From positions 1 through 43,668 of IMG/VR virus record IMGVR_UViG_3300045999_010452: a stretch of 43,668 nucleotides of DNA; one strand, 5' to 3'. Made by a program: the position numbers and the translations under genes. Below the pieces are notes generated by a model that made no database searches, was not told the DNA's origin, and saw only the letters and a program-made list of their open reading frames with translations. Positions 21,862 through 42,409 of this stretch are shown here, in pieces (the first letter of the stretch is position 1; each line of letters opens with the position of its first letter). Origin of the DNA: a virus.

Positions 21862-23310
21862 TTAAGAAGGTTCAAAAAACATAAAAAAACTATCAGGATT
21901 TACTGGTTTATACCAGACTAAAACTAATCCTCTTGCTCCAGCTCCACCATCATAAGAAGGACCTGAAGTTCCACTACAAGCTCCTCCACCTCCTCCTCCA
22001 TAATTATCACCACTATTTCCATTTCCAGCTCCATTTTGTACTAAAGATCCATTTCCTCCTAAAAAAATTCCACCAGTTCCAGGTGTTGCTCCTGAAGCAT
22101 CAGTTCCAGCATTTATATTACCAGCACCACCTCCACCTACACCACCTCTACCAGTACCAGCTCTTGATCCTGCACTTCCAGAACCACCACTTATAATAAC
22201 ACTTCCAACACATCCTAAAGTTGAACTTACACCTCCACCACCTAAAGCACCACCAGATCCTGCTCCACCACCTGCGCCTCCTGTTGCTACAACAAATGGA
22301 GTAGCTCCTGTACTATTTAATTTTACTAACGCAGATCCTCCAGTACCTGAATTAGTTGTTGTCGCTGAAGGTGCAGTTATATATAAAACATCTCCTGGGG
22401 ATACTGTTTGTGCTTTTCTAGAGTAATTACCTCCAGCTCCACCACCACCAGCACCTTGTTGTAAAAAACCTGGAGAGGCAAGTCCACCAGCTCCACCCGC
22501 GCCCCAACATTCTATAGTCACTTCAGTCACTCCATCAGGAATAGTAAAAATAGAATCTGTGGATGAAGTAAAAGCAAAATAAACAACATCATCATAATAT
22601 AAAGTGGCTTGTCCTCTAGCACCAGCTCCACCTTCATTTGGACTTGCGCCTGTTGATTCTCCAAATTTAATAGAAGCTCCACCTCCACCTCCACCTGGTG
22701 CTGATCCTGCTATGCCAGCTCCACCATTATCATTAGCTCCATTACCTCCTGCTCCACCACCACCAGCTCCTCCTGATCCACCTATTCCTAAAACACCGGG
22801 TAATCCATTTGCATCATTTCCAGCTGCTCCTCCACCTCCACCACCAACTCCTCTATCTGTAAATTCAGGTATTACAAGTAGAGTACTTCCACTAGCTCCA
22901 TTACCTCCAGATCTTATTAAAGATCCAACACAAAAATCTGTACTTGCTATACCTCCAACTCCTATAACAGTTCCAATTGTATTTGCCGCAACACTCTCTC
23001 CTCCTATACCTCCAACTGCTACTACTCTTGAAATTCCTCCATATGAAGCAATAGTAGCATTTCCTGTGCCTCCTGAAGTAGTGGTGGCTTGTCCTACAAT
23101 AATTGAAGCGGCATTAAATGGTGATACAGAAAAAAAACCTCTAACAAATGTACCTCCACTACCACCTCCAGCCGCAGCTGAATAATTAAGTGTACTATCA
23201 CTTTCAGCAGATCCTCCTGCTCCTCCAGCTCCTATACAATCAACTGTAAGTGAATCTATATAAGGAGGAACATAAAAACTTGTATTTGTAGTATATATAT
23301 CTTTTGGCAT
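21862..23310 (-). CDS. Glycine-rich adhesin-like virion protein with internal duplication
   Basis: A 482-residue protein made of two similar halves. Each begins with a beta segment (YVPPYIDSLTVDCIGAGGAGG; FTIPDGVTEVTIECWGAGGAGG), then glycine-rich loops (GGGGGG, GGAGG), then a closing strand (GGAGARGQATLYYDD; GGAGARGLVLVWY). Such glycine-rich domains occur in phage fibre and adhesin proteins; polyglycine loop bundles also form the receptor-binding tip of T-even gp38 adhesins. It follows the giant fibre by 10 nt, so it may be the distal tip or a second receptor-binding protein. No membrane segment is present. The adhesin role is inferred from composition and location. Confidence 0.65.
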   Translation of the reverse strand: MPKDIYTTNTSFYVPPYIDSLTVDCIGAGGAGGSAESDSTLNYSAAAGGGSGGTFVRGFFSVSPFNAASIIVGQATTTSGGTGNATIASYGGISRVVAVGGIGGESVAANTIGTVIGVGGIASTDFCVGSLIRSGGNGASGSTLLVIPEFTDRGVGGGGGGAAGNDANGLPGVLGIGGSGGAGGGGAGGNGANDNGGAGIAGSAPGGGGGGASIKFGESTGASPNEGGAGARGQATLYYDDVVYFAFTSSTDSIFTIPDGVTEVTIECWGAGGAGGLASPGFLQQGAGGGGAGGNYSRKAQTVSPGDVLYITAPSATTTNSGTGGSALVKLNSTGATPFVVATGGAGGGAGSGGALGGGGVSSTLGCVGSVIISGGSGSAGSRAGTGRGGVGGGGAGNINAGTDASGATPGTGGIFLGGNGSLVQNGAGNGNSGDNYGGGGGGACSGTSGPSYDGGAGARGLVLVWYKPVNPDSFFMFFEPS

Positions 23311-23320: not shown

Positions 23321-26300
23321 TTATATATTATTTACTTTAGCTATTAAATCCCATTTAGTATCTGTTGAATTATATATGAATCCTAAATATAAAGTTTTAT
23401 TGGCTACAGTTATAGCAGGTAAAAGAACATCTCCTCCTGCTCTATATATTCCATTAAAAGTTAACGATTGTGGTGTACCATTATCTTTTATTCTTATTAT
23501 AAGTCTTTCTCCATTATTAGCAGTTCCTGTAGGAGCCGCGATTGTTAAAGATGTAGCTAAAGCTGTGACATGCCAAGTTCCCGCTGATGATATAACAGGA
23601 GTTAATGTAGTAGTTGTTGTTGTAGCTGTAATCTGTGGTATATATCTGGCTTGAAATCCATTAGCGTTAAGATTAGCGCGTGATACATTAGCCACATAAA
23701 ATCTATGATTATCCGCAGAGTGGTACATTAAAGTACTTGCTTCTATACCTAATCCATAAGACGCAGAGGCATTTGATCCAGTCCATAATAATAGTTGATA
23801 ATCAGAAAAATTAGCAAATCCTCCAGCACTAACATTATTTTTTATGTGAAGATTTGATAATGGACTTGTAGTACCTATACCAACATTAGCACCATCCAAA
23901 GACATTACGTGCTGAGTACCTATAGTTGCAGAAGAGTCTGTTCCCTGTCTCCAAGTATAAAAATCTATTGCATTACCAGAAGCCGCTCCTGAATTATGTC
24001 TTGTTTTTATAGCATGTCTATAAGTTGCCGAGTTATTATACCCTAATGTGATTTGATTACTGCTAAAATTAGCTGCACTGTTACCAGATCTTAATTGTAG
24101 AGATATCTGACCTGCAGTATCTTGAACTCCTTTAATATCTAAATTTGCTGAAGGAGAAGTTGTTCCTATACCAACGCCTGTTGATCTCATAACAGCCGTA
24201 TTTGTGCCATTGCTATAAAAATACATAGCGTCTCCATCATCATATCCTCTTATGTATGTACCATTTGCATATGTATAAGCTCCAAAAAATATAGATCCAC
24301 CATCCGTTAATTGCATATCTCCTGACCCTGATACATAAAGAGATACTCCACCTCCATTTGATAATTCATTATTTATATAAGTAGCGCCTTGTACATGTAA
24401 TGGATAGCTAGGAGTTAGTGTACCAATACCTACTCTATTATTAGTACCATCTAAAAACATTACTATATCAGAATTACTTCCACCAGCTACAAAAAACTGC
24501 ATATTATTACCATTAGCTTGAATATAGCTAGTAGTTGAAGTATTTGTAAGTGCTAAATCTACGTATGATATATTTGATAAAACTCTAAGTCCAGAACCTC
24601 CGCCTTGCGCATCCAATGTAAAACCAGGAGATGTAGTTCCTATACCTACTCTACCATTTGTATTATCATATATAAAACCATTACTTCCTGTTATATTAGA
24701 TGTACTAGTCCAATAAGCAACTTGAGTACTAGCACCAGTTCCAGTGACAGTACCTGCTGATCCACCTGTTGCTGTTAATGTGCCACTACTTAAAGATAAA
24801 CCAGATCCAACTGTTATCGCAGATAAAGTTCCTCCTGAATTAGTTCCTACTATTCTATCTCCTGTTCCTGATAAAGAATTTATCGTTACATTTCTAGATC
24901 CTTGAGATATTGTAAGAGCATCTGTAGCAGTTCCTGAACTGGCATCTCTTATTTTAAATTGTCCGCTAGAATCTCCAAAATATCCAGCAAACCAAATAGC
25001 CGCATCAAATGTTCCATAATAACCAAAATCTATATAAGAATTATATCCACTGCCCCCAGCAGTTAGATCTAAAACTGCATTTGTAGAATTATTTGAATTT
25101 TGACCAATTCTGGCGTTTCCTATTACTTGTAATTTTGCAGTAGGTGATGTAGTACCTATACCAATGTCACCATCACCATTAAGAACTAATCTTGTAGCTG
25201 ATGAAAAATTATCATATATTGCAAGATTACTACTTGCGTTTATACCTATACCATAGGTTATTGATGTTTGAGAACTCGCTTGGAATGTTAAAGCATTATT
25301 ACTCGCGGCTCCTGTATTAATTTGTAATTTACCTGTTGATGGATTTGTAGTTCCTACACCTACATTTCCATCATATCTAATTCTTACAGCTTCAGTTAAA
25401 GCAGATGAAGTTGTTGGAGTTATATCAAACGCTAAACTTGAACCAAATTCTAATCCTGTGTCTCCACTATAATTAATTACACTTCTAACCCTAGCACTTG
25501 TTAACATACCAGCGGTGTATGTTCTATTTTTAAAGACAATACCACCACCGAAACCAGCGTAAGGAAAATTATCATGTTCAGCTGTAATAGTTAAAATATT
25601 ATGAGGTAATGTTCTATCTCCTACTGGTGCTACACTAAATACTTCTAAAGATGTTGATGGACTTGTTGTACCTATACCTACTTTTCCATTAGATGGTTGT
25701 AGTGCTAAAGGTCTTGATGCGCCTCCTTGTAAAGTAAGTCCAACTGTATCTCCCCATGCCATTAAAGTTTGTACTCCTCCGGCTCCATTTGCTGTTATAT
25801 TAAATGCGTTTGCATAATCATAATTAGAATTTATAGTAGCATAATAATTAGTAGCATCTGATACTGTTTGAAGTTTTATACTACTTCCATTACTTGCTAT
25901 TACAAGTTTTGCCGCAGAAGGATCTGTAGTTCCTATACCTATATTACCTGTATCAGTTATTCTAATTCTTTCTGATACTGATGTTGGGGACGTGTTACTT
26001 AGTCCAGTTCCTATTGATATTCCAGCATTATTTCCTCCATTGAATTGGATATATCCCATCCAATATCCATCTACTTTTTGTTGGATTCTATTTCCTGCAG
26101 TATACCAATCTGATCCGTTTCCTATCCTAATTTGACTAATTTCTAAATTATCAACATTAGCATTAGTTGTAGTGAAAGTTTGTAATATTTTTCTATCTCC
26201 TGAAGTAGTACCTAATGATCCTCCTGATATTGTTAAACTATCATTAAAAACTCTATTTCCAGAATTACTTGATTTTATTAATCTCCAACCTGAGATATAA

Positions 26301-29300
26301 CATCTTCTTGTTCCACTAGTATTATCATAGTTAAATAAAGCTAGAGGAGAAAAATATTTTGAAGCAGTTGGCCAGTTATTAGTATTACCCATGGTGCTAC
26401 CTCCTACAGAAGTGCCAGTTCCATTCCAGTATCCAAATACTTTTGTCCAAGTAGTTCCTGGATTGTAATTACTCATTACATTGTATGTGAATGTTCCAGG
26501 ATTTCCTAGTAGAACAGTAAAAGATTCATTATAATCTATGCTACCCATGTAGTGGGTATTTACTGAACCAGCTTCATTTTTAATCCAACACTCCATATAA
26601 TACCAATCATTAGATCCAGTATCTATAGGGATAAATGGAAAACCTGAAGAGTATGATACATTTCCTACATTTACAGCGCCATCAACTTGTATAACATAAC
26701 CACCAGGAGCTGTATTATCAGTAGCCCAAGTAAACGAGGTACTACCAAAATAATCTTGTAACTGAGCTTGAGTCCATGTTGGGTCAATTTCAAAAACAGT
26801 ATCTCCTGAGCTATAATGTCCTATAGGATACTTTCTTGTAGCATCTACTCTTGTATTTCTTGAATTAATTCCTCCTGCTACATCTAGCAAAGCGTTAGGA
26901 GATGTAATTCCTATACCAACATTACCACTTGTATTTATTGTAACATGAGTTCCATTATTAGCTCCTAAATATAAAGCATTTCCTGCTGTAGCAAATACTC
27001 TAGCGTATCCTGTATCCCAAGTTAATCCACCATATGCTGTTGAATAAGGTCCCCAATATGAAACACCTCCACTGTCTGTCCATAAAGCATTACTAGCAAA
27101 AGTTCCATTAACTTGTAGTTTAGTAGCTGGTGTTGAGGTACCTATACCTACACTACCACTAATAAAATAAGAATCTCCATTAGAACTAATTCTTGTAGTT
27201 AATGAAGCAACATTGTAAAGGTCTAATGTTCCTCCGTTACTTGAGTTTTCATATAATAATGCTGGGTAGTTAGCTGTTGAAGTAGCTCTTAATAGTAAAC
27301 CACCAAGATTATTTGCTGTTGATGATTTAATTTCAAGTTTAGCATCAGGAGAAGTAGTACCTATACCTACATTACCACTATCTAAAAAAGTTGCTATTGC
27401 GGCTGAACCATTATTTGCTATATTAAATGTAGATAGTGGAAATGTAGTTCCATCTCCATTAACTAATCTCCAAGTATATCCTCCATTTCTATCGAATAAT
27501 ATAGTAGGAGCTGCTGAACGAACATTAATACTTCCTGAGATATCTAATCTTTGTGATGGAGAAGTAGTTCCTATACCTACATTGCCAGCGCTAGTGATAC
27601 GCACTCTTTCAATTCCAACTCCTGCATTTGCACTGGGTTGGGTATAAAATCTTATTGATCCTGGACTTCCTCCTGCATTATAAGAATCTTGAACTAAATC
27701 TATTCTTGAATCAGAATATATGTTTACTAATTTAAGATTAGTAAGTATATCACCTGAAGTGACATAGTCATGATAAATGGCTCCTTGTCCATATCCGCCA
27801 GGACTATTAAATGATATTCCTTCATTAGTATGAGAAGCGTTAGATAAGCCTATTTCTAATTTAGTTGAAGGAGTTGTAGTGCTTATACCTAATCTAGCAT
27901 TAGTATTATCCCAATATAAATTCGCTGATGATGTTAAAGAAGTAGGACCTGAAAAATAAGCTACTTGAGTTGATGAACCACTAGCGTATCCTAAACCACT
28001 AGTTCCAGCTGTACCATTACCACCAGATGTTCCTGATACACCTGTTGTACCTGAAGTACCGCTAGTTCCACTCACCCCACTTGTACCTGAAGAACCAGAT
28101 GTTCCTGATGTACCAGATGTGCCTGAGCTTCCTGATGAACCTGAGCTTCCTGATGATCCAGAGCTTCCACTTGATCCAGATGATCCAGATGATCCTCTTG
28201 TACCACTAGTACCACTAGTGCCAGATGTGCCACTAGTACCATTTGTACCTGATGTTCCAGATGTTCCTGATGTTCCTGATGTGCCAGATAATCCACTTGA
28301 ACCAGATGATCCAGATGATCCAGATGATCCTGAAGTACCATTTGTACCAGATGTTCCTGATGTTCCACTTGAGCCAGAACTACCTGAGGATCCAGATGAA
28401 CCAGAACTACCAGAAGAACCTCTTGTACCTGAAGTTCCACTTGTACCACTTGTTCCTGAAGTACCACTAACACCACTTGAACCTGAACTTCCACCAGTAC
28501 CAGATGTTCCTGAGGTACCTGATGTACCACTTAATCCGCTTGAACCACTAGATCCACTTGATCCACTTGAACCTGATGAGCCTGAGCTGCCACTTGAGCC
28601 AGAAGATCCTCTTGTTCCACTTGTTCCTGAAGTACCTGATGTTCCTGAAGTTCCACTAACACCGCTTGAGCCAGATGTTCCTGATGTTCCTGAAGTACCA
28701 GACACACCAGAAGTTCCAGATGTACCACTAGTTCCACTAGCACCTGATGAACCACTTGAACCTGAGCTTCCTGATGAACCTGAAGTTCCAGATGTTCCAG
28801 ATGAACCACTTGAGCCACTTGAACCTGAGCTACCAGAAGATCCTCTTGTACCTGATGTTCCAGATGTTCCTGAAACTCCTGATGTACCACTAGTTCCACT
28901 TACTCCACTTGTACCTGATGTACCATTAGTACCTGATGTACCAGATGTACCTGAAGTGCCACTTAAACCAGAAGAACCACTTGATCCTGATGATCCACTT
29001 GAACCACTTGAGCCAGATGATCCCCGAGTACCACTTGTGCCACTAGTTCCTGATGTACCACTTAAACCTGATGATCCACTTGAGCCACTAGTACCTGTTG
29101 TACCTGATGTACCAGATGTTCCACTTGTACCAGATGTTCCTGAAGTGCCTGATATACCTGATGAGCCAGAGCTGCCTGATGATCCAGAACTACCTGAACT
29201 ACCTTTAGTACCACTTGTGCCAGATGTTCCTGAAGTGCCTGATATACCTGAGGTACCACTTGTACCACTTAAACCACTAGAACCACTTGATCCAGATGAA

Positions 29301-32300
29301 CCACTTGTACCACTTGTACCAGATGTGCCACTTGTGCCTGAAGTTCCACTTAAACCTGATGAGCCTGAGCTACCTGAGGATCCAGATGAGCCACTTGATC
29401 CTGAAGAACCTCTTGTACCTGATGTACCACTTGTGCCTGATGTACCACTTGTTCCTGATATTCCACTTGTACCTGATGTACCACTTAATCCACTTGAACC
29501 ACTTGAGCCTGAGCTACCACTTGTTCCACTAGTACCATTAGTACCAGATGTACCACTAGTACCACTTAAACCTGATGAGCCTGAGCTACCACTAGAGCCT
29601 GAGCTGCCTGAAGTACCCCGAGTACCACTTGTTCCAGATGTGCCTGATGTACCACTTGTTCCACTTGTACCACTTAATCCTGATGAACCAGAACTGCCTG
29701 ATGAACCTGAAGTTCCAGATGTACCAGTTGTTCCAGATGTTCCGCTTGTACCACTAACTCCACTTGAACCACTTGATCCTGATGAGCCTGAGCTGCCACT
29801 TGAGCCAGAAGATCCTCTTGTTCCTGATGTTCCGCTTGTACCTGAAGTACCACTAATCCCATTTGTACCAGATGTTCCTGAAGTACCTGAAGTACCAGAT
29901 GTACCTGATGATCCAGATGTACCACTAGTACCTGAAGTACCACTTAAACCAGAAGAACCACTTGATCCTGATGATCCACTTGAACCAGATGATCCCCGAG
30001 TACCACTTGTGCCTGATGTACCGCTTGTACCACTAATACCTGATGATCCAGATGATCCACTTGACCCACTGGTACCTGATGTACCATTTGTTCCTGATGT
30101 GCCAGATGTACCTGAAGTACCACTCACTCCACTAGATCCACTACTTCCACTTGAGCCTGAACTACCTGATGATCCACGTGTACCTGATGTGCCGCTTGTG
30201 CCTGATGTGCCACTTAAACCTGATGAGCCTGAACTACCATTTGAGCCGGATGTGCCAGCTGTACCTGATGTTCCTGTTGTACCAGATGTTCCTGATGTTC
30301 CACTCACACCTGATGATCCACTTGAACCAGAACTTCCACTTGAACCTGAGGAACCTCTAGTTCCACTAGTACCAGAAGTTCCACTAGTTCCTGATGTACC
30401 GCTTACGCCTGAAGAACCACTTGATCCACTTGATCCAGATGTTCCTGATGTTCCATTTGTTCCGGATGTACCACTTAAACCTGATGAACCAGATGAGCCA
30501 CTTGAGCCAGATGATCCAGATGAACCACTTGAGCCTGAGGAGCCTCTTGTACCGCTTGTACCTGATGTACCGCTTGTACCACTAACACCTGAAGTTCCAC
30601 TTGTACCAGTAGTTCCACTTGTACCACTTGTACCTGATGTTCCACTCACACCATTAGTACCACTAGTTCCACTTACACCACTTGATCCTGAAGATCCAGA
30701 AGATCCGGATGTACCAGAAGTCCCATTTGTACCAGAAGTACCTGATGTGCCACTAACACCTGATGATCCAGAACTACCTGAAGAACCATTTGTTCCACTA
30801 GTGCCACTAGTTCCTGATGTTCCAGAAGTACCACTAATGCCACTTGAGCCACTTGATCCACTTGATCCTGAACTACCGCTTGAGCCACTACTTCCTGATG
30901 ATCCTTTAGTACCTGAAGTACCTGATGTTCCGCTTATTCCTGAAGTACCTGTTGTACCACTTGTTCCAGATGTTCCACTTATTCCATTTGTTCCAGAAGT
31001 ACCTGATGTACCTGAAGTTCCAGAAGTGCCACTTGTGCCACTAGCCCCACTTGAACCACTAGATCCAGAACTACCACTAGTTCCATTAGTGCCACTTGTT
31101 CCAGAAGTACCTGAAGTTCCATTTATACCTGATGATCCTGAACTACCAGATGAACCTGATGTTCCTGTTGTACCAGAGGTTCCTGATGTTCCGCTTATAC
31201 CACTTGTACCTGATGAGCCAGAGCTACCTGATGAACCAGATGAGCCACTAGAGCCAGATGAACCTCTTGTACCTGATGTACCAGAAGTTCCACTTGTACC
31301 TGATGTTCCACTTAATCCGCTTGAACCACTTGATCCTGAAGTACCACTAGTACCTGATGTTCCATTAGTTCCAGAAGTACCACTAATACCACTTGAACCA
31401 CTTGATCCACTAGAACCAGATGATCCACTAGTGCCTGAAGTACCAGATGTACCACTAGTGCCACTTATACCTGATGAGCCAGAACTGCCTGATGAGCCAC
31501 TAGTTCCTGATGTACCATTTGTTCCTGATGTACCACTAGCTCCACTTGATCCAGATGATCCACTTGAACCAGAGCTTCCTGATGTGCCTGAAGTACCATT
31601 AGTGCCTGATGTTCCATTTACTCCTGAAGAGCCGGAGCTGCCGCTTGAACCACTAGTACCAGATGTACCAGAGGTTCCACTATTTCCTGAAGTACCAGAC
31701 GTACCACTAACACCAGAGCTACCACTTGAGCCTGATGAGCCAGAAGTACCTGATGTACCTGATATTCCATTTGTTCCACTTGTGCCGCTAGCACCACTTG
31801 ATCCACTAGAACCAGATGTTCCTGAAGTTCCAGATGTACCACTTAAGCCTGAGGTACCATTTGTACCACTAGAGCCACTTGTTCCTGATGTACCTGATGA
31901 GCCGCTTGATCCAGATATACCTGAAGTACCTGATGTTCCATTAGTGCCTGAAGTACCAGTTGTTCCATTAACACCAGAACTACCGCTTGATCCACTAGAA
32001 CCAGATGTACCAGTTGATCCTGAAGTACCAGTTGTTCCACTAACACCGCTTGTACCTGATGAGCCACTTGAACCTGATGAACCTGATGTGCCACTTGTTC
32101 CATTAGTACCTGATGTGCCATTTACTCCACTTGTGCCTGAAGTTCCACTTGTACCTGATTCACCTGATGTACCAGAAGTGCCAGTTGTTCCAGACACACC
32201 ACTAGTTCCACTAGTTCCACTAGTTCCAGCTATACCTGACTCACCACTTGTACCTGAGCTACCTGATAATCCAGAAGTTCCTGATGTACCAGAAGATCCT

Positions 32301-32698: not shown

Positions 32699-32722
32699 TT
32701 ATTTCGTAGATAATTAGTCGAT

Positions 32723-32730
32723 AATAAATA
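32723..32730 (-). promoter_or_regulatory. TATTTATT box upstream of the giant fibre gene
   Basis: The coding strand reads CACCTATTTATTATC, ending 24 nt before the start codon. It is the most divergent of the set (CTATTTA instead of ATATTTA). It follows an AT-rich hairpin and U tract, so the fibre gene may have its own promoter separate from the sugar operon. Confidence 0.35.
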
Positions 32731-32747
32731 GGTGAAATATATAAAAT

Positions 32748-32778
32748 AAAAAAAATCTGTATATACTTTTGTTATATA
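32748..32778 (-). terminator. Weak terminator at the end of the sugar operon
   Basis: The minus strand reads TATATA-ACAAAAG-TATATA-CAGA followed by eight T. The stem is only A-T pairs and includes the stop codon of the last operon gene, so partial read-through into the fibre gene is likely. Confidence 0.35.
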
Positions 32779-33803
32779 TTTCTTTTATTTTTGTCAAAAA
32801 ACGCAAATGAGTGGATTCTTTCTAATCGTTTTTTAGTTATAATTTCATTATAATCTAAAATACCGTTTTTATATATTTTAAGATGAAATTCTTTTTTTGT
32901 AGTTTTGTGGTAAGCAAAATAATCTGTTAAAATAGTATGTTCTTCATCATGATCATCAATAACCATTTTATAATGAGCATCTTCTCTTGAACAAATAAAA
33001 ATATAACTTATGTCTTTAACATCTTGTATTAATTCAAGAGGTACAATATGATAATCTGTTTTTTTATTAAATGTTTTATTAATGTCAATATTAGATTCTT
33101 TAAATAAAGAGACAGGTCCAAATGTATCTAAATTATTATTACTAAGTAATAAATTATTAATATTATCTTTAAAATTATATTTTAAAAGTTGTTCAAAACA
33201 AAGTAAACCATCATCTGATGAAAACTTAGAAACATGATCTTGTTTATTACTACAGACATGAAAATTATCTAAAAAGAAAGATAAATCTGTATAAAAGTAT
33301 ATACCACTAAAAGAGTCATCAAATTTTTCACTAATGTCATCAAAATAAGCTTTTTTATTTAATAGTTCACAAGATTTTTCTATTGTTGAAAAAATATCAA
33401 GTTCATTATCTGTTATAAAACAATCACCAACTAAAAAATGACAATGAGTATAATTTAAACTTTTTAATGTTAAAAAATTATTTTTTAATTGTCTTGAAAC
33501 AGAATAACCAACATCATTCCAATTTAAAGATATAGAAAAAAATTGAAAATCAGGTGTGAAATAACTCACTCTACTTGTGATATTAATGTTATCATTATCT
33601 AATAAATCTACTAAACTAATCAATTCATTTTTATCACTAAAAATAGAAAAATTAGTTTCATTAGATATTCTTTTATCAATAGGACATAATGAAGTATAAA
33701 TAATATCTTGCCCTGTTTTTTTTAATTGTTTAATACAGTCTACTACCATATCAACTTTTTCTTCAGTATCAGCCCAATAATTAACTACAAAACAAGATTT
33801 CAT
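32772..33803 (-). CDS. GT-A-like glycosyltransferase-related protein (343 aa)
   Basis: Last gene of the sugar operon. Its N-terminus (FVVNYWADTEEKVDMVVDCI; GQDIIYTSLCPID) aligns by eye with the 328-residue protein at 38113 and with the middle domain of the 890-residue protein. The segment HFLVGDCFITDNELD corresponds to their ESDC/YDV stretch, where a DXD-like metal site would be. The C-terminal 90 residues (SYIFICSREDAHYKMVIDD...) look like the beta domain that also ends the paralogs. It overlaps the acetyltransferase stop/start by 4 nt. It is divergent and may be an inactive or acceptor-binding member. Glycosyltransferase membership is inferred from the paralogs. Confidence 0.55.
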   Translation of the reverse strand: MKSCFVVNYWADTEEKVDMVVDCIKQLKKTGQDIIYTSLCPIDKRISNETNFSIFSDKNELISLVDLLDNDNINITSRVSYFTPDFQFFSISLNWNDVGYSVSRQLKNNFLTLKSLNYTHCHFLVGDCFITDNELDIFSTIEKSCELLNKKAYFDDISEKFDDSFSGIYFYTDLSFFLDNFHVCSNKQDHVSKFSSDDGLLCFEQLLKYNFKDNINNLLLSNNNLDTFGPVSLFKESNIDINKTFNKKTDYHIVPLELIQDVKDISYIFICSREDAHYKMVIDDHDEEHTILTDYFAYHKTTKKEFHLKIYKNGILDYNEIITKKRLERIHSFAFFDKNKRNI

Positions 33804-34210
33804 AAATAATATCTCATTGTTATTGATTCTTGCTTTAACCCACAGCGTTCATAAAACGCTACTCGCTCTGGAAAGCATGATAAATTGATTTTATAACATC
33901 CACAATTTTTGGCTATTTCTATTAGATGTTCTATTAATTTAGCTCCAATACCATGTCCTCTATATTTTTCTCTCACAGCTACATCTTCAATAAACGCGGC
34001 CACACCACCATTTCTAATTATTTTATGTTGAAAATGTAATGTAGCTGTACCTATAATTTCATTATTATTTTCAGCTACAGCCATATAATTACCATTTGTT
34101 AGATATATATCTATAGTTTCATCTGTTATTTCATCTATTTTCCAAACTTCTTGATAGGTTTCTAATAGACCTTTATTAACATCTTCTTTTTGAAATTCTC
34201 TAATTATCAT
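33800..34210 (-). CDS. GNAT acetyltransferase resembling glucosamine-6-phosphate N-acetyltransferase (GNA1)
   Basis: A 136-residue GNAT-fold enzyme. IIGTATLHFQHKIIRNGG, FIEDVAVREKYRGHGIGAKL (acetyl-CoA loop R-G-x-G-I-G) and GCYKINLSCFPERVAFYERCGL follow eukaryotic GNA1 closely, including the FYExCG ending. The expected reaction is acetyl transfer from acetyl-CoA to an amino sugar, giving GlcNAc-6-P in true GNA1 enzymes. It starts inside the stop of the aminotransferase gene (4-nt overlap) and likely acts on its product or on a related amino sugar. The substrate could equally be a nucleotide-linked amino sugar. GNA1-like proteins are uncommon in phages. Confidence 0.78.
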   Translation of the reverse strand: MIIREFQKEDVNKGLLETYQEVWKIDEITDETIDIYLTNGNYMAVAENNNEIIGTATLHFQHKIIRNGGVAAFIEDVAVREKYRGHGIGAKLIEHLIEIAKNCGCYKINLSCFPERVAFYERCGLKQESITMRYYL

Positions 34211-35349
34211 ACAAATAAATTATAACCTTCAATTACTTTTTCAGCCACATATTTTATATCATCATTTGTTAAATTCATATGTAAAGGTAATGATATTAAT
34301 TCTTCAGAAATAGTATGTGATATTGGGCATGTACCATGAGCGTAACTATATATCTCATAATGTGTATTATCTCTATAATGCACTCCTGGATATATTCCTT
34401 GTGTGTTTAGGTACTCCATAATTTTATTTCTATTTGGTACTATTATTTGATATAAATGTCTTGATGCTACAATTGTTTCTTTAGACATTTTTACAGAATT
34501 AATAGGAGTGTTTTTAAAATATGAGTCATATAGTTTACATATTTCACGTCTTCTATCATTATCCTCTTCTAAATGTTTTAGTCCAACAAGAGCCATTGAA
34601 GCTACAATAGAATTACCATGATATTTAAAACCAGCGTCTATAACATCATATTCCCATTTATATGAACCTTTATCATTTGTTCTTTGATAAGTATCTTTAT
34701 CAATACCTAACCAAGATAATTTACGAGATAAAATATCATAATCTTCATTTTTAAAACAAATCATACCTGAATCAGCTGTTGGTAGATTTTTTACAGCTTG
34801 AAAACTAAAAACAGTGACATCAGCATCTAAACCAATATGCTTATCATTTAATGTCTTTGTACCAGCCATATGAGCGGCATCTAATATAAGTTTTAATTTA
34901 TATTTTTTACAAAGATTTAATATACTAGAGTATTGACCAACATTTCCTCCCATCCCAACAAACATTACAGCTTTAGTTTTTTTAGTTATTTTGTTTTCAA
35001 CAGATTTGGGATCTAAACACAAGTATTCATCTACATCAGCAAAAACTGGTTTAAGATTTTCATATAATATAGCATGATTAGTAGAAACAAAAGTTAAAGG
35101 TGTTGTTATAATTTCATCTCCATCTTGCCATTTATTAGTGTCTTTTAATATTTTAACAGCTAAATGTAATCCTGAAGTGCTAGAATTTAAAAAGTGAGCA
35201 TGAGGATATCCAGTATATGATTTCCATTCTTTTTCTATGTCTATAGTTTTAAATCCTAAACCAGTCCATCCTTTATCTAAACATTCAGACATGTGTTCAA
35301 AAATTTCTTTCTTTCTAAATTTAGGAATAAATAATTGTATATTTCTCAT
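34207..35349 (-). CDS. DegT/DnrJ/EryC1/StrS-family PLP sugar aminotransferase
   Basis: A 380-residue aminotransferase that converts a keto-sugar nucleotide to an amino sugar using PLP. NSSTSGLHLAVKIL (residues 55-68) is the phosphate-binding entry. Asp157 in ILDAAHMAGT should contact the PLP ring nitrogen, and Lys187 in FSFQAVKNLPTADSGM is the Schiff-base lysine. The C-terminal GVHYRDNTHY and ISLPLHMNLTNDDI are family signatures. No dehydratase that would make the keto sugar is in the window, so the substrate comes from the host or another phage locus. It overlaps the neighbouring genes by 4 nt on both sides. The family is certain; the substrate is unknown. Confidence 0.9.
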   Translation of the reverse strand: MRNIQLFIPKFRKKEIFEHMSECLDKGWTGLGFKTIDIEKEWKSYTGYPHAHFLNSSTSGLHLAVKILKDTNKWQDGDEIITTPLTFVSTNHAILYENLKPVFADVDEYLCLDPKSVENKITKKTKAVMFVGMGGNVGQYSSILNLCKKYKLKLILDAAHMAGTKTLNDKHIGLDADVTVFSFQAVKNLPTADSGMICFKNEDYDILSRKLSWLGIDKDTYQRTNDKGSYKWEYDVIDAGFKYHGNSIVASMALVGLKHLEEDNDRRREICKLYDSYFKNTPINSVKMSKETIVASRHLYQIIVPNRNKIMEYLNTQGIYPGVHYRDNTHYEIYSYAHGTCPISHTISEELISLPLHMNLTNDDIKYVAEKVIEGYNLFV

Positions 35350-37445
35350 ATTAAATTTTTTATTTGTTCTATAACATTTTCTACTTTTATACTTTTATGA
35401 CATTCAAATTGTCGATCAGTATTTTTTAATTTTGGACACCAATTCCAATCACCAGCGTCAAATCTAATTTCAGAACTATTCCAACATCCATTACAAACAC
35501 TTTTATTTAAAATTCTAATTGTGTTAGAACTAAATTCATGATCTTCATTAGTGAAATTAGAGATCATTACTGTTTTTTTATTTAAAGCCCAATTCAACCA
35601 TGATAGACCACTTGATAAACCTATAAACAAATCAGCATGATAAAGAATGTTCATAGTATTGTCTATAGATGTATCTTGTGGATTTATAATATTTTTAAGA
35701 TCACTAGTTTCTTTAGATACTTCTATAACTTTATATCCTTTATCAACTAGGTAATCTACTAGATCTTGCCAATAATACCAATGTTTACATTGAGCTGTTG
35801 ATACTGTTGATATAGCTACATACTTTTCATATGGTTTTTCTTTTGGAGTAAAATTTAATTTAGGTAAAATTTCTTTGTATTCCAAACCTAATATGTTAGT
35901 AGATGATTTTTGCAAAGGTATTGTGTTAGGTAATTCTGGTTCTTTATATTCATCATAAAACCAACCTATATCATATTTAGCTAAAAGATTATGAGCAACT
36001 TCTCCTGGTTTAATAAATTCTAATTCTGGATATAATGGTTGGAATAGATCATTCCAAAATGTTGAGGTTACAACTTTACATTTATGTTTTTTTCTAAATT
36101 CTTCTATGTAAGGAAACCAAGCTAAAGTATCACCTAATGATTTAGATTCTAATCCAATTAAGACTCTCTGGTTTTCTAAATTTAGAACATAATTGTAAAT
36201 AAGACTATTACCATCATATATTTTACAAGTCCATTTTGTGTAATATTTTTTATTTAGTTTAACCCACATATTACATTTAATATTGTCCTCATAACATATG
36301 TCTCCTTTATCATCTAAAAATTGAACTTTATAATTTTTATTAGTATTTCCAATTATTTCTAAGAAAGGACCATCAACAAAATGAATATTAAATTTAAGAT
36401 TATCTATAGGTTCAGTGTAATTAATTTTTACATCTTTATAAACATCATTAAAAGCTTGTTTAGATTCATCACTATTAAAATTTTTAGTGATATTTTTCAC
36501 AGAAGCATATATTTTAAATAAGCGATTACATATATTATTCCAACTATACTCTTGTCTAGTTTTTTCTAAACTTAAAATTATATTATCATAGTTATTAGAT
36601 AATTCAATTAGTCCTTCAACTAAAGAATCTACATCTCTTTGAACTTTAATTAAACCATTTATATTTTTAGTTCCATTATAAGTTCCAACAACAGGCAATC
36701 CACTTGATAAAGCTTCTAATAAAGTTAAATTTGGATGCCCAGCTTCTAACATTGATGGATGTAAAAATATAGTATGATCTCTATATAACTCTAATATGTC
36801 ATCTTCATTTGGAGAATCACATTTTAAAGTTAATTTTTCATACTTAGTATGTTCTGGGTAGTGTTTAAAAAATTCTAAATTGTCTGTTGGACCAGCTATG
36901 GTGATAGGTAAATCTAAACTTTTAGCTGCTTCTATAGCTAATAAAAATCCTTTTCTATCAATAGAAGAGTCACCAGCCATTCCATTGTTAGCTAAACATA
37001 ATAATTTATGTTCTTTTTTTTCTCTACTGTCTGGTTTAAAAAAATCAGTATCTACTCCATGTGATAAATAAAATAATTTATCTGTCTCATCAAAAAAATC
37101 AACTAAAAACTCAGCGTGGGTTATTGATATAACTGAATGTTTTATAGCTTCTAGATTAATATTATAGTTATAAGATCCTTTACCATAATGAAAAACATGA
37201 TGATCATGTAATGAAAAAATATATGGTATTCCTTTATCACGAAGTTCTAAAGCTTGATTAGCTACATGAACATGAATTAATCCATCTTCCTTAGTAACAT
37301 TATTAATATATTTTATATCAACATTATTACCTAATTTTTCTAAATTAAGTTTATAATTCCATATTATCTTTTCAATAGCTCCCCATCCATTAGGAGGTAT
37401 TGGAATTAGACCTGGTGATACTTGTGTTACTTTTATTTGTTCCAT
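35346..37445 (-). CDS. Fusion of a GT4 glycosyltransferase and an autotransporter-heptosyltransferase-like (TibC/Aah) domain
   Basis: A 699-residue bifunctional enzyme. Residues 1-310 are a GT4 (GT-B) transferase: HDHHVFHYGKGS, LFYLSHGVDTDFFKP and the nucleotide-sugar motif EAGHPNLTLLEALSSGLPVV. A beta segment (FNIHFVDGPFLEIIG, about 355) leads into RVLIGLESKSLGDTLAWFPY (about 430), the GT9-like start of bacterial autotransporter heptosyltransferases. HADLFIGLSSGLSWLNWAL is its sugar-nucleotide region. Cys651, Cys654, Cys670 and Cys682 form the CxxC-x15-C-x11-C cluster that in TibC-type enzymes binds iron. That family O-glycosylates Ser residues of repeat-rich autotransporters. The downstream giant Ser/Thr fibre is an obvious candidate acceptor. 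Both domains look intact; donor and acceptor are inferred. Confidence 0.8.
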   Translation of the reverse strand: MEQIKVTQVSPGLIPIPPNGWGAIEKIIWNYKLNLEKLGNNVDIKYINNVTKEDGLIHVHVANQALELRDKGIPYIFSLHDHHVFHYGKGSYNYNINLEAIKHSVISITHAEFLVDFFDETDKLFYLSHGVDTDFFKPDSREKKEHKLLCLANNGMAGDSSIDRKGFLLAIEAAKSLDLPITIAGPTDNLEFFKHYPEHTKYEKLTLKCDSPNEDDILELYRDHTIFLHPSMLEAGHPNLTLLEALSSGLPVVGTYNGTKNINGLIKVQRDVDSLVEGLIELSNNYDNIILSLEKTRQEYSWNNICNRLFKIYASVKNITKNFNSDESKQAFNDVYKDVKINYTEPIDNLKFNIHFVDGPFLEIIGNTNKNYKVQFLDDKGDICYEDNIKCNMWVKLNKKYYTKWTCKIYDGNSLIYNYVLNLENQRVLIGLESKSLGDTLAWFPYIEEFRKKHKCKVVTSTFWNDLFQPLYPELEFIKPGEVAHNLLAKYDIGWFYDEYKEPELPNTIPLQKSSTNILGLEYKEILPKLNFTPKEKPYEKYVAISTVSTAQCKHWYYWQDLVDYLVDKGYKVIEVSKETSDLKNIINPQDTSIDNTMNILYHADLFIGLSSGLSWLNWALNKKTVMISNFTNEDHEFSSNTIRILNKSVCNGCWNSSEIRFDAGDWNWCPKLKNTDRQFECHKSIKVENVIEQIKNLI

Positions 37446-38116
37446 TTTTTAAAAAACTTAATTTTATCTTCTTGAAATTTATCTTGATTTATTTCTTTAC
37501 CTACTGTTGTAGATCCAAAATGAAATACTATTGAATCTCTAACTAAGGCATGTTTTATACCTAATGACTTTATTTTCTCAGTATAATCATTATCAGCAAA
37601 ATAAAAATTAAACTGTTCATCCCAAGGATAAACAGAATCCCATACTCTTTTTTTCATCACATAACACCACCCAGTCATAAACTCAGTTACTTTATAACTC
37701 TCATGATAATCTTCATTTGTACCAACAAAATGAAAATCAAAATATTTAGCAAAAAAGGCTGGACACTTTGGTGAGAATGATTCTATGTCTGGTCTTTTAT
37801 TATGTACTTCTACTATTTTATTAAACCATCCTCTTTCAAATCTTAAATCATTATTAATTATTAATACCCAATCATTTGTAATATAAGAATTAGCTTTATT
37901 AATTAATTTACAACAATTATATGGATCTTCTTCTTTAAAGTATTTATAAATCCATGGTGAGTAATCATATGTTGAATTTGGATCAGTTTCATAGAGAAAT
38001 ACTTTAAAATTATACTCTTTTTCTGAGTCGTGAAGAGTCATTAAAGCTATTTTTGTCATATTATAAACATCAATATTTGATGTTTTAGTATGTATTATAA
38101 CATCTATATCTGTCAT
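37433..38116 (-). CDS. Family 2 glycosyltransferase (227 aa)
   Basis: A short GT-A transferase. VDVIIHTK-type entry (DIDVIIHTKTSN), SYITNDWVLIINNDLRF (NND in the DXD position) and GWFNKIVEVHN are followed by FMTGWCYVMKKRVWDSVYPWDEQF and FADNDYTEKIKSLG with HFGST, the usual GT2 acceptor and catalytic region. It should add one sugar from a nucleotide donor. No membrane segment is present, so it is cytoplasmic. It overlaps the next gene by 13 nt and the previous gene by 4 nt. Donor and acceptor cannot be read from the sequence. Confidence 0.8.
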   Translation of the reverse strand: MTDIDVIIHTKTSNIDVYNMTKIALMTLHDSEKEYNFKVFLYETDPNSTYDYSPWIYKYFKEEDPYNCCKLINKANSYITNDWVLIINNDLRFERGWFNKIVEVHNKRPDIESFSPKCPAFFAKYFDFHFVGTNEDYHESYKVTEFMTGWCYVMKKRVWDSVYPWDEQFNFYFADNDYTEKIKSLGIKHALVRDSIVFHFGSTTVGKEINQDKFQEDKIKFFKKWNK

Positions 38117-39099
38117 AAACTAAAAGTTCCTCTTTTTTTAAATAAATGTAAATTTTCTTTTGTTAGTGTAAATGCCTTTGTGTAACTATATAAATCATCT
38201 TCATAAACATCTATTTCAAAAATATCTCCATTTACTTCATGAGTGCTATGAGCGTAACATCCTCTACAAAAGAATGATTCATTTACAACTTCTCCATTTA
38301 TTTTAGTTACTGTTTTATAGGTATTTTGATTATAAGTAGTGTTAAATCTAAATATAACAATTTTATCATCATCATGATATAAAGCTTCACAAATAAAAGC
38401 TCCATATCTAAAAATATTTATTTGACTTGAATCAAAATATGTTGAGCTATGTTCATCAATTATCAAATAATCATTTTCATTATTTTTAAACTTAACATAG
38501 AAATCATATTCAAGCATATGACTCATGCTGTTTAATGTCCAAGACATTAAATTAGTAGGTGGTTTCCAAACAGATAAAAAATAAATAGGTCTACCACCAA
38601 AAATAAGAGTCTCATAAACTTGAGAGTTAAACACATGCTCTCTAAAATCTTTAGGTTTAAAGAAAATTAAATCTTTATTTTCATTAAACATTTGCTTTTG
38701 TAAATTATCAAATTTAATTAAATCATCATCTGAGAATATACAATCAGATTCCATAAAATAAAAAAAGTCATAATTTAACCCTTTAGCAAAGTTAATTGAT
38801 TTCATCATACTTCTTGTTATTGGTAAAGTATGACCAGGAAAATTTATAACAGCATGAAATCCATCTATATTATAATTGTATGATGGAAATAATTCTTCAG
38901 GAAGTAATGTATTATCCTCATCAAATAAATAATAATTAGATTTTTTATAAACTTCAGAAGGTATAGGATAATGAGACATTAATAAAATATCATAGTCTAT
39001 TTTTTTTAAATTATCTAAACACTCTGATAATACATTTAATTGTTTATCAGTGTTAGGATAACTATGGACTATAATAAGTTTTTTTATATCCTTTTCCAT
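38113..39099 (-). CDS. GT-A-like glycosyltransferase (328 aa)
   Basis: A paralog of the 343-residue protein at 32772 and of the middle domain of the 890-residue protein. IIVHSYPNTDKQLNVLSECL with DILLMSHYPIP starts the fold, and YDFFYFMESDCIFSDDDLIKF holds an ESDC stretch in the DXD position. RPIYFLSVWKPPTNLMSW and MLEYDFYVKF form the acceptor half, then a beta domain closes the protein (DKIVIFRFNTTY ... KRGTFSL). It overlaps the methyltransferase start by 16 nt. The metal-site sequence supports an active transferase. Substrates are unknown. Confidence 0.68.
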   Translation of the reverse strand: MEKDIKKLIIVHSYPNTDKQLNVLSECLDNLKKIDYDILLMSHYPIPSEVYKKSNYYLFDEDNTLLPEELFPSYNYNIDGFHAVINFPGHTLPITRSMMKSINFAKGLNYDFFYFMESDCIFSDDDLIKFDNLQKQMFNENKDLIFFKPKDFREHVFNSQVYETLIFGGRPIYFLSVWKPPTNLMSWTLNSMSHMLEYDFYVKFKNNENDYLIIDEHSSTYFDSSQINIFRYGAFICEALYHDDDKIVIFRFNTTYNQNTYKTVTKINGEVVNESFFCRGCYAHSTHEVNGDIFEIDVYEDDLYSYTKAFTLTKENLHLFKKRGTFSL

Positions 39100-39710
39100 A
39101 TTATATCTGATTGTATTTGTTCAGGAGTATAGGCATAATCAAATCTATAACATTCTTCAAATCCTAAAGGTGTTAGAAGATCAACTATATCTTTATAAAG
39201 TTTTTGATTTTTCCAAAATTTATAATGTTCAACCTCAACATGCATCATTTTTATTTTTCTAATTGAATCACCAAAACTTTTTAATGCTTCATAAGAATAA
39301 CCTTCAACATCTATTTTCACTAAATCATATTCATCTTCACCTATCATATCACACAAATCTTTACCTGTTATAGTATTCACATCAATCCAATTTTCATAAC
39401 CATTATGATGTGTTCTATCCAATAATGAACTCATACCTAATACACCTAAATTAGATGTAAATATAGCGTTAAATTTAGAAACACCATTTTCTAATGATAT
39501 AGCGTATTCATATATTTTATAGTTTGGATATTTCTCTTTTATATGGTCAATACAGTGAGGATGAGGTTCAACTATAAAAACTTTATCATCAGGTATATTA
39601 AAATGATGTTTTAATAGGTCAGCGTCATCTCCATCTCTAGAACCTATTTCTAAAATATTTTTTGGAGGAGAAGTAAAATGTTTATTATATTGCTCTATAA
39701 ATGGGTTCAT
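39084..39710 (-). CDS. FkbM-family SAM-dependent methyltransferase
   Basis: A 208-residue methyltransferase. KNILEIGSRDGDDADLL is the SAM-binding loop, VFIVEPHPHCIDHIKEKYP is the ribose-binding Glu strand, and YDLVKIDVEGYSYEALKSF is the family signature with the acidic strand-4 end. Family members methylate sugar hydroxyls in glycan and antibiotic pathways. Here it would cap or modify the sugar chain assembled by the neighbouring transferases, protecting it or altering recognition. It overlaps both neighbours (4 nt upstream, 16 nt downstream), so translation is coupled. Family assignment is firm; the acceptor sugar is inferred. Confidence 0.85.
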   Translation of the reverse strand: MNPFIEQYNKHFTSPPKNILEIGSRDGDDADLLKHHFNIPDDKVFIVEPHPHCIDHIKEKYPNYKIYEYAISLENGVSKFNAIFTSNLGVLGMSSLLDRTHHNGYENWIDVNTITGKDLCDMIGEDEYDLVKIDVEGYSYEALKSFGDSIRKIKMMHVEVEHYKFWKNQKLYKDIVDLLTPLGFEECYRFDYAYTPEQIQSDIIWKRI

Positions 39711-42379
39711 TTTCTAAATGTTTTTATTGATTTATCTATTAAAGAATATCCGTCAACTTGTGTTGTGAGTCTTGGTCTAACTATACCCATTTTTTTATTT
39801 GAAAAAATATCATTAAAGTATAAATCAGCGGCGTCCCAAGGATGTGTTTTTAATTTATTTAGTAAATATTCTCTAATATGTTTAGGGAACATTATACATT
39901 GAATACCTATAATTTTATTTGTTATAAAAATCCAAGCGCACTCTGGTATTTCTTCTACAACATGAGATATATGCCATCCTTCTTCTAAAGTATGAGTATC
40001 ACCAAATGAGAAATAATCAATACCATATTTGTTAATTATTTCACATGCTTTATAAACATGATCTATAAATGTTGTTGGTAAAACTTCTAATAGGCAATCA
40101 CCTTCACATACAATTAAAAAATCTAAATCTTCTGTGAATTCATTTAAAATACCATTTTTAAAAGATTCAAAACAACCATAATGTGGAGGTGTAAGAGCTT
40201 GTCCTTGTAAAGGATGTCCTTCTTCAAATTTAGTCATTGATACACAATCTGGTCTAGAACAATTATCAGATGGAGGTAATCCTTTATAAGGTTCATTTTG
40301 AATTAATTTGTACTCTAATATACCATTTAGTTTAGATAAATTTTCTCTACTAATTTGCTCTCTCTCATCATTATTTGTTGTTTGCAGATGAATCAATTTA
40401 ATTTTAGGTTTTTTAGTTAATCTAAAAATACCATTATTATTATACTCATGAATATTATCTTGATTCACATGGAATGTTTGAGACTTGTAAATTTCTCCAT
40501 TATCAATTCTATCAATTATTATTTTTAAAGGATTACCATTAAAATATATTTCTTTACATATTTCTCTACCCTCAGATATTTTTTGAGATATATTAGTTAT
40601 TTCATTTTCATTTTCATATACTCTTAAATTAATAATTCTATCATCAATATTATAAGTGAAAAAATAAAACATTAATTCATTTAGCCTATTTTCAACAGGT
40701 AAAATAGACATATACTCTGAAGTTGATGATTTTCCTAAACCAGAATTAGGTAAAGGTGTTGATCCTGGATCTATCCATAATCCAACTTCATCTTTAAGAA
40801 TAGCCATAAAATAATGTTCTAAGAAATTATGACATCCTCTTTTATCACAATCTTGAATAAATTCATCTGGATTGGTTATATATGGGAATGTTTTTAAGAA
40901 GTAATCTACTTTGAATCCCATAGCTGTAGTTTCAATACCTAATCCTACATCAGTATGTATTCTTGTTAAATAAGCGTGCCAATCAATTTCATCTAATTTA
41001 CTAAAGATATTATCAACAGTATTTAAATCAGACTCATGCAGCACAACATCATAAACAGCAAATAATACTTTTTTAAATCCTAATTGTTGAGCTAATTTAA
41101 AACCATTAAGTAAATTTATGTAAGCAGCAAATGATTGATTTGTTTTGGCTAAAGCACTTATATTTACTTCAACATTATAATTGTCTGTATAATTAAAGAA
41201 ACGATTATAAAATGAATGATGAATCATTACATTATTAGCATCATAAAAATAATAATCAACTAATTGTTGTAATTCAGTTGTGACAGGATAATGAGATACT
41301 AATATTATTTGTCTGCCTGTTTTTTTAAATGATTCTATGCATTCTTTAGTTAGTTGTTTTCTAATACTAGTATCTGGGTATGTTGATATTATAATTACTT
41401 CATCTTTACCTTTATCCTGAATTTTTTCTGGTTTTAGGAATTTAATTAATAATTGAGTATCTTTATCTAGATCACCTGTTAAAAAATCTATATTTGGGTT
41501 ATTATCATATTTACCACAATATACATCCAAATTAAACATCATCATTGGAATATTATATTCCAAAACTTCTTTAATAGCTATTGGATTTAATTCTTTGTTA
41601 TATTTGTCTCCCTTAGAGGCAAAAAATGATAAGTCAGCTGCTTGTATAAAATCTTCTACATCATTTCTCTCACCCCAAACTATACAATTACTTGGTTTAT
41701 TTTTTAATAAAGGTTCCCAATAAAATTTAAAATTATCAGCTTGATTACCTATAAAATGAAATTTTATTTTATAATCTTTAAGTTTTTCAGCTATTTCAAA
41801 TAAGTATTTTTGGTTTTTCCTAGGTGTGAATAATCCAACATTAATAATATGTTTCCAATCATCTTCAAAACCTAATTTTTTTCTATTTTCTTCTCTATTA
41901 GGTATTTTTTGATCTACAGGATATTCAACAATTTCATAAGGTATATCAAAATTAATATATTTGAAAGCATTATAAGCACTCACAAATAAAAATTTGTCAG
42001 GCATAAATCTTTTTATAGTTGTAGAAAAACTAGAATCATGTGTTGTCTCTATTATTTTATATTTTCTATTTTTAGAATATATTTTTTCCAAAATAGATGA
42101 GTCAATAAATGTTTCTGGTAATTCTTTAAAATGAAGAAAGTCTGGTTTATGTTCTTCTATTAGTTTAAGTAGATGATGTTTGTCTTGATCTAAGGTAATT
42201 AATTTGTCACCTAGTAAGTTTTGGATTCTATCTCGTTGAACAGTAAGTTTACCACCAGTTATATTATCCCATTCTAAACAATATACATCATGATCTTTAT
42301 ATGTTGCTTCTATTTGCTTATAAAGATATTGAGGCATTCCACCTGTAGATAAGTGAGAAGCTATAAACATTATTTTCAT
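39707..42379 (-). CDS. Three-domain glycosyltransferase (GT4 + two GT-A-like domains)
   Basis: First gene of the sugar operon, about 890 residues. The N-terminal 340 residues are GT4: IASHLSTGGMPQYLYKQIEA, NVGLFTPRKNQKYLFEIAEKL and the E-x7-E region ELNPIAIKEVLEY. Residues 340-660 repeat the GT-A-like fold of the 328- and 343-residue neighbours (EVIIISTYPDTSIRKQLTKE; VLFAVYDVVLHESDL), ending in the same beta domain. The C-terminal 220 residues (KIKLIHLQTTNNDEREQISR; GCFESFKNGIL; FLIVCEGDCLL) look like a further GT-A, perhaps GT25-like, enzyme. The frame is open from a TTG at 42385, but the ATG at 42377-42379 is preferred. A box lies 22 nt upstream of it. The multi-domain structure suggests successive sugar additions by one polypeptide. 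Confidence 0.72.
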   Translation of the reverse strand: MKIMFIASHLSTGGMPQYLYKQIEATYKDHDVYCLEWDNITGGKLTVQRDRIQNLLGDKLITLDQDKHHLLKLIEEHKPDFLHFKELPETFIDSSILEKIYSKNRKYKIIETTHDSSFSTTIKRFMPDKFLFVSAYNAFKYINFDIPYEIVEYPVDQKIPNREENRKKLGFEDDWKHIINVGLFTPRKNQKYLFEIAEKLKDYKIKFHFIGNQADNFKFYWEPLLKNKPSNCIVWGERNDVEDFIQAADLSFFASKGDKYNKELNPIAIKEVLEYNIPMMMFNLDVYCGKYDNNPNIDFLTGDLDKDTQLLIKFLKPEKIQDKGKDEVIIISTYPDTSIRKQLTKECIESFKKTGRQIILVSHYPVTTELQQLVDYYFYDANNVMIHHSFYNRFFNYTDNYNVEVNISALAKTNQSFAAYINLLNGFKLAQQLGFKKVLFAVYDVVLHESDLNTVDNIFSKLDEIDWHAYLTRIHTDVGLGIETTAMGFKVDYFLKTFPYITNPDEFIQDCDKRGCHNFLEHYFMAILKDEVGLWIDPGSTPLPNSGLGKSSTSEYMSILPVENRLNELMFYFFTYNIDDRIINLRVYENENEITNISQKISEGREICKEIYFNGNPLKIIIDRIDNGEIYKSQTFHVNQDNIHEYNNNGIFRLTKKPKIKLIHLQTTNNDEREQISRENLSKLNGILEYKLIQNEPYKGLPPSDNCSRPDCVSMTKFEEGHPLQGQALTPPHYGCFESFKNGILNEFTEDLDFLIVCEGDCLLEVLPTTFIDHVYKACEIINKYGIDYFSFGDTHTLEEGWHISHVVEEIPECAWIFITNKIIGIQCIMFPKHIREYLLNKLKTHPWDAADLYFNDIFSNKKMGIVRPRLTTQVDGYSLIDKSIKTFRK

Positions 42380-42401
42380 AACCAATTTTAATTATTTCAT
42401 A

Positions 42402-42409
42402 TATAAATA
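42402..42409 (-). promoter_or_regulatory. TATTTATA box upstream of the sugar operon
   Basis: The coding strand reads AGTTATATTTATATATG, ending 22 nt before the ATG at 42379. It would drive the whole overlapping operon together with late tail genes bearing the same box. Candidate late promoter. Confidence 0.4.

Follow-up and report, generated by a model that had tools for sequence, protein, structure and literature searches.

A TibC/Aah-family sugar operon beside a Ser/Thr collagen-like tail fibre: a candidate protein O-glycosylation system in a T4-like phage

Why does a tailed phage carry a whole set of sugar genes next to the gene of a tail fibre? Many phages have glycosyltransferases next to their tail fibres, and these are mostly explained as modifiers of the host surface. 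The question is raised here by a 43,668-base virus record of IMG/VR (IMGVR_UViG_3300045999_010452, analysed over its full length and called the window below), which comes from a T4-like myovirus known only from environmental DNA. On its minus strand, an operon of eight sugar genes, including one for an enzyme of the TibC/Aah family of protein-Ser glycosyltransferases (bacterial autotransporter heptosyltransferases, BAHT; PMC4358343), lies directly upstream of the gene for a giant fibre with a Ser/Thr-rich collagen-like shaft. Going by these sequences, we consider it fairly probable that these genes give the phage a protein O-glycosylation system of its own, with the Gly-(Thr/Ser)-Ser shaft of the adjacent fibre as chief acceptor. 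The phage would thus sugar-coat its own fibre, because a true relative of TibC/Aah adjoins the fibre and because both co-occur across phages.

What kind of enzyme is at the centre of this proposal? The 699-aa protein (35346..37445, minus strand) is a fusion, with a GT4 domain (PF00534) in its N-terminal half and a BAHT domain in its C-terminal half (35349..36395, minus strand). The latter matches TIGR04414 (hepto_Aah_TibC) with 269.6 bits against a curated cut-off of 200, over residues 369-697 of the protein and positions 26-373 of the 374 in the model, and TibC itself (4RAP) aligns with the 699-aa enzyme at E 2.8e-48. The catalytic Asp (D110 in TibC) is kept, SLGD being aligned with TLGD, and all four Cys of the iron finger, at positions 339, 342, 358 and 370 of TibC (PMC4358343), are aligned as well. 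Thus, the TibC/Aah membership of one enzyme's C-terminal domain, which an earlier note on this DNA had suspected from the letters alone, holds. Among the viral BAHT homologues, the Asp and each of the four Cys were found in 64 of 64, and therefore the BAHT genes are not decayed. Bacterial genomes gave one close BAHT homologue only, with 34% identity, so that there is no cellular comparison set. No autotransporter was found among the scanned open reading frames (ORFs) of this incomplete record, and the candidate acceptor there is the G-X-S tract of the fibre.

This fibre is a 3125-aa tail-fibre-like protein (23321..32698, minus strand; PF01391 Collagen, 635.6 bits), which consists of a short N-terminal head, a collagen-like shaft and a C-terminal part of ~1556 aa with 11 VGIGT-like repeats. 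About 1500 residues of Gly-led triplets, roughly two thirds of them Ser/Thr, had been noticed in it before. The tract proved to be 501 uninterrupted G-X-Y triplets (residues ~65-1569; 27992..32506, minus strand), and it is indeed rich in Ser/Thr, while the exact share is a little under two thirds, as 614 Ser and 275 Thr make 59%; charged residues amount to 15 Lys/Arg and 4 Asp/Glu. The Y position is Ser in 441 of the 501 triplets (88%), and the X position is Thr in 263 and Ser in 173 (87% together). The tract contains not a single Pro, and the Pro-rich X positions of classical collagen are absent from it. Since 495 of 499 sampled 27-mers of the tract DNA are distinct, the pattern is kept at the protein level, with no recent expansion of the DNA. 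A 1478-aa plus-strand ORF over the fibre was rejected as a reading-frame shadow. Directly downstream of the fibre, a 482-aa Gly-rich protein (PF21722; window 21862-23310; 29% Gly) is encoded, possibly a tail-tip or fibre partner.

Do enzyme and tract keep company in other phages? The BAHT domain was searched in the viral collection, 80 of 146 matching stretches being used, and the repeat was scored by a strict DNA pattern that asks for five G-(S/T)-(S/T)-type triplets in a row. Random controls were 40 records picked by a neutral 14-mer, and a reverse set of 50 records was picked solely for eight G-(S/T)-(S/T)-type triplets. The strict repeat was found in 39 of 50 BAHT-bearing records versus 1 of 40 random ones (Fisher 5e-14), and BAHT in 22 of 50 repeat-bearing records versus 0 of 40 random ones (Fisher 2e-7), where the P values assume independent records and the random and Gln-tract sets are not host-matched. 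Among 47 records with Gly-X-Gln collagen repeats, two had BAHT, one of them over the cut-off (Fisher 3e-6); the repeat match in one Gln-tract control record was a GVQ reading-frame artefact. When the BAHT sequences are collapsed at 70% identity, 19 of 23 clusters have the repeat, and so do all 13 clusters that include a record of 45 kb or longer; clusters separated at 60% identity have it in 12 of 13 cases.

The sheath gene of the tail allows the same comparison within one lineage. In the set anchored on the sheath of the window (n=26), three records have both repeat and BAHT, two have BAHT only and 21 have neither (P 0.004), while all 24 relatives (59-92% sheath identity) in a set anchored on the sheath of L255, one of the three loci with both, have neither. 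Pooling of the two sets gives three records with both, none with the repeat only, two with BAHT only and 45 with neither. L255 itself has repeat and BAHT. Both are missing from L539 and L588, relatives with 85-89% sheath identity to it, and the fibre just before a DUF7936-like gene contains a G-X-Y tract in L255 and none in these two. In L202 and L203, whose sheaths are the nearest relatives of the window's, another kit lies between fibre and sheath, with GT2, 2-oxoglutarate (2OG)-Fe(II) oxygenases and a methyltransferase, and the collagen-like tract of L202 is Gly-Ala-Gln. Judged from these few loci, phages seem to swap the enzyme kit and the fibre together. The kit of L202 (4872-9344) and L203 (2942-8886), which consists of GT2, 2OG-Fe(II) oxygenases, DUF6445 and a methyltransferase-TPR protein, possibly hydroxylates or glycosylates other types of fibre.

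Thus, the co-occurrence of enzyme and tract among phages, proposed in the earlier note as a check, is far beyond chance, concerns Ser/Thr tracts and not Gln tracts, and is joint in one tail lineage. The core claim of that note, that the operon serves the Ser/Thr fibre, passes this check, and its reading as a whole is partly supported; transfer to the tract, a modified amino sugar as the glycan, and stiffness, protease resistance or masking as its effects are predictions. The pair is also found in named genomes. In Microcystis phage Mel-JY01, a cultured cyanobacterial phage, one ORF has 162 such triplets and lies, on the same strand, 1.7 kb before a gene annotated as 'methyltransferase FkbM', whose C-terminus is BAHT. 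LR756501, a 735-kb phage genome, encodes a full GT4-BAHT fusion with a Ser/Thr tract ~4 kb away on the opposite strand, and LR756504 has BAHT and no tract within 20 kb. Single phage proteins already carry the name Aah/TibC in databases. As to annotation, the 1016-aa Ser/Thr collagen-like ORF of Mel-JY01 (L081 2-3049) is unannotated in GenBank, and a minus-strand coding sequence is called across the repeat.

What are the other enzymes of the operon? Its eight minus-strand ORFs (32772-42385) overlap successively by 4-16 nt, and the end of the operon is 73 nt from the fibre gene. The Pfam families in it are GT4, FkbM, GT2-like (sub-threshold), GT4 plus Glyco_transf_9/BAHT, DegT/DnrJ and GNAT. The eight overlapping sugar genes upstream of the fibre, as described before, are confirmed. 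Three smaller enzymes are readily assigned to families: an FkbM-family methyltransferase (39084..39710, minus strand; PF05050 43.7 bits; TIGR01444 52.7 bits, over cut-off), a GT2-like glycosyltransferase (37433..38116, minus strand; phrog_22332 glycosyltransferase 2.7e-16; PF00535 sub-threshold) and a DegT/DnrJ/EryC1/StrS sugar aminotransferase (34207..35349, minus strand; PF01041 266 bits), which is closest to ArnB/PseC/QdtB-type sugar aminotransferases (its PDB relatives include ArnB and QdtB) and is under all equivalog cut-offs. The acetyltransferase (33800..34210, minus strand; PF00583 77 bits) had been called GNA1-like, and this identity must be given up in favour of a generic GNAT, every NCBIfam model being far under its cut-off.

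The 892-aa protein (39707..42385, minus strand; ATG at 42379 is a more probable start than TTG at 42385) is a three-domain enzyme with an N-terminal GT4 domain (PF00534), a middle GT-A-like domain and a C-terminal GT25-like domain. The AlphaFold2 model of the C-terminal domain (predicted local distance difference test, pLDDT, 94.1) has human COLGALT1 and mimivirus R655 as its best PDB folds (E 3e-9, template modelling score, TM, 0.56-0.67). A profile search of this domain against PDB sequences gave nothing, the likeness being seen by fold search only, and PF01755 (GT25) has no match to the window's own domain and matches 2 of 18 homologues, at best with 4e-5. The resemblance of the modelled domain to collagen galactosyltransferases is only suggestive, because the GT25 family also holds lipopolysaccharide (LPS) enzymes. 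The middle domain belongs to the same GT-A-like family as two further proteins of the operon, of 328 aa (38113..39099, minus strand) and of 343 aa (32772..33803, minus strand), the latter being a divergent member that aligns at ~20%. Pfam, NCBIfam and PHROGs gave nothing useful on these two. The model of the 328-aa GT-A-fold protein (pLDDT 91.6) has GT-A glycosyltransferases and sugar nucleotidyltransferases as PDB neighbours, at a low TM of ~0.4, and the same domain occurs in its best match in the viral library, a phage protein that bears the name Glycosyltransferase Aah/TibC; the 328-aa protein is thus a probable glycosyltransferase.

How could such enzymes decorate a fibre? The DegT and GNAT enzymes would convert a 4-keto-6-deoxy nucleotide sugar of the host into a 4-acetamido-dideoxy nucleotide sugar. 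The BAHT domain would add the first sugar to Ser at the Y position, since TibC glycosylates Ser and not Thr (PMC4358343) and the tract has Ser at nearly every Y. The GT4, GT25-like, GT2-like and GT-A-like domains might then lengthen the glycan, and the FkbM enzyme might O-methylate it. Glycosylation would take place in the host cytoplasm upon late expression, ahead of assembly. The resulting sugar coat might stiffen and protect a Pro-free shaft that may lack a stable triple helix when bare. In worm cuticle collagen, sugar on Y-position hydroxy residues is said to stabilise proline-poor collagen.

Is the operon expressed at a suitable time? Before it lies a TATTTATA motif (42402..42409, minus strand), which is common to tail genes and is a putative late promoter. 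The replication genes of the window are T4-like (UvsX-like, SSB, DnaB-like helicase, exonuclease) and on the minus strand throughout, as is the contractile-tail module of sheath, tube and baseplate proteins, whose sheath is nearest, among named phages, to those of Flavobacterium phage immuto (46%) and Microcystis phage Mel-JY01. On the coding strand, seven intergenic gaps contain TATTTATA at 16-24 nt from the start that follows (P 4e-12); six of these gaps precede tail-region genes and one the sugar operon, and none lies before replication genes. Read on the plus strand, these are TATAAATA at 14083, 16705, 17772, 18338, 21429, 21848 and 42402. Similar but not identical forms, TATTTATT and TATTTATC, belong to the fibre and the sheath. 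Across 19 relatives, TATTTATA is placed 8-35 nt before an ORF start in 73 of 99 cases; the same count for most of its letter permutations is 2-10 of 27-62, and for the overlapping TATATTTA it is 45 of 72. On the coding strand, enrichment is seen for the reverse form TATTTATA and not for the T4-type TATAAATA. Generic sigma-70 and terminator scans stayed at chance level. If TATTTATA is a late promoter, the operon would be made together with the virion proteins.

Several points weigh against a glycosylated shaft. Acceptors of TibC are beta-helical autotransporters, unlike the collagen-like tract. The TibC/Aah family is marked by a dodecameric ring and by ADP-heptose as donor, and no heptose genes were recognised within the window. 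Of the repeat-bearing records, 28 of 50 are without BAHT, and therefore either the tract needs no BAHT, or another enzyme serves it, or the gene lies outside the stretch that the fragment covers. In turn, 11 of 50 BAHT records are without the strict repeat, ten of them being shorter than 45 kb and two carrying Asn-rich or short variants. Lastly, the nearest operon, that of L212 (57-96% identical gene by gene), directly adjoins the sheath with no fibre between, and its contig ends before the place where an upstream fibre would be expected. As a separate observation, two methyltransferase-like genes of L212 (892-1386 and 6666-7400) are absent from the operon of the window, which suggests variable glycan decoration.

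Then, might the enzymes alter the surface glycan of the host, LPS or O-antigen, and so block superinfection? This is the usual reading in marine T4-like phages, such as for the glycosyltransferases in the host-recognition island of pelagimyophages (PMC7029224); moreover, surface polysaccharide loci commonly hold DegT, GNAT and FkbM enzymes, and the prokaryotic enzymes of GT25 often act on LPS (PF01755). However, a surface role fails to predict the tie of BAHT to Ser/Thr tracts over Gln tracts or random phages, the BAHT family acts on protein Ser (PMC4358343), and a late-type motif as in tail genes means expression that is late for superinfection exclusion. We disfavour this explanation as unlikely. 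Less likely again is that the enzymes glycosylate some other virion protein, such as the sheath, the 482-aa Gly-rich protein or another fibre, with the tract being incidental. It is true that six sheath-anchored loci (L212, L237, L247, L249, L257 and L275) have BAHT upstream of the sheath gene at a distance of no more than about 8 kb, and of 1-5 kb in most, with nothing fibre-like between operon and sheath in L212, but 45 of 50 long sheath-anchored records keep the sheath without BAHT, and the tract is what varies with BAHT.

We find it improbable, more so than the two preceding explanations, that a shared host or habitat favours tract and BAHT independently, without a functional link. In records with both, repeat and BAHT are nearer to each other than under random placement, which speaks for a link, but only modestly so (Kolmogorov-Smirnov P 0.02), and the lack of host matching in the random and Gln-tract controls would also leave room for such an effect; against it stands their joint presence in one sheath lineage, in nearly all BAHT clusters separated at 60% identity and in the cultured cyanobacterial phage. 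Glycosylation of modified bases in the phage DNA, known for phage glycosyltransferases from work cited in PMC12619734, is scarcely credible here, as BAHT enzymes act on proteins, the operon goes with tail genes and a late motif, and no base-modification gene was recognised in the record, from which much of the genome is absent.

What would glycosylation of the fibre shaft mean for other phages? Three elements are already known separately, namely virions glycosylated by virus-encoded enzymes, the glycosylation of viral collagen, and BAHT enzymes, and no description of BAHT coupled with Ser/Thr collagen-like fibres in phages was found in the open-access literature. That a protein-Ser glycosyltransferase family tracks Ser/Thr collagen-like fibres makes a concrete case for self-glycosylated phage fibres, and it points to a possible route to stabilising proline-free collagen-like shafts; Mel-JY01 offers a cultured phage with the same pair. 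With rather more doubt than belief, we also entertain a widespread O-glycosylation system of tailed phages, in which BAHT enzymes, often fused to other transferases, would be dedicated to Gly-(Ser/Thr)-Ser fibres and dense Ser glycans would replace proline and hydroxyproline in giving the shaft an extended, stable form. If this is true, the host-surface role now assigned to many glycosyltransferases of tail islands would give way to one in modifying the virion.

How does the operon compare with known systems? With the TibC/Aah enzymes (TIGR04414) it shares a BAHT domain over the curated cut-off, with catalytic Asp and four-Cys iron finger kept; unlike them, the enzyme of the window is viral and fused to GT4, no autotransporter was seen, and a collagen-like tract of Gly-X-Ser triplets is proposed as acceptor. 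The glycosyltransferase islands of marine T4-like phages likewise place transferases beside tail fibres, but they are read as modifying host LPS, with no tie to Ser/Thr tracts described (PMC7029224). In mycobacteriophages, too, phage-encoded glycosyltransferases act on the virion, namely on capsid and tail tube (Freeman 2023, cited in PMC12619734), whereas it is the C-termini of the capsid and tube subunits that are modified there, with no collagen-like acceptor and no BAHT reported as far as that citing account goes. Mimivirus comes near in its gene content, being a virus with collagen-like proteins, glycosyltransferases, an aminotransferase and an acetyltransferase; its L230 acts on collagen-like proteins, and its L136 and L142 make UDP-viosamine-NAc, which is found 2-O-methylated (PMC9614988). 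It differs as a giant eukaryotic virus, whose L230 targets hydroxylysine and whose enzymes fall outside the BAHT family. In the Bacillus exosporium, BclA is a glycosylated collagen-like filament with anthrose, a 2-O-methyl 4-acylamido-4,6-dideoxy sugar (PMC9614988, PMC6222408), and is unlike our fibre in being a bacterial spore protein served by different enzymes. The 4-acetamido sugar predicted for the DegT and GNAT enzymes would be as in the viosamine of mimivirus (PMC9614988), and the anthrose of BclA would be a comparable case.

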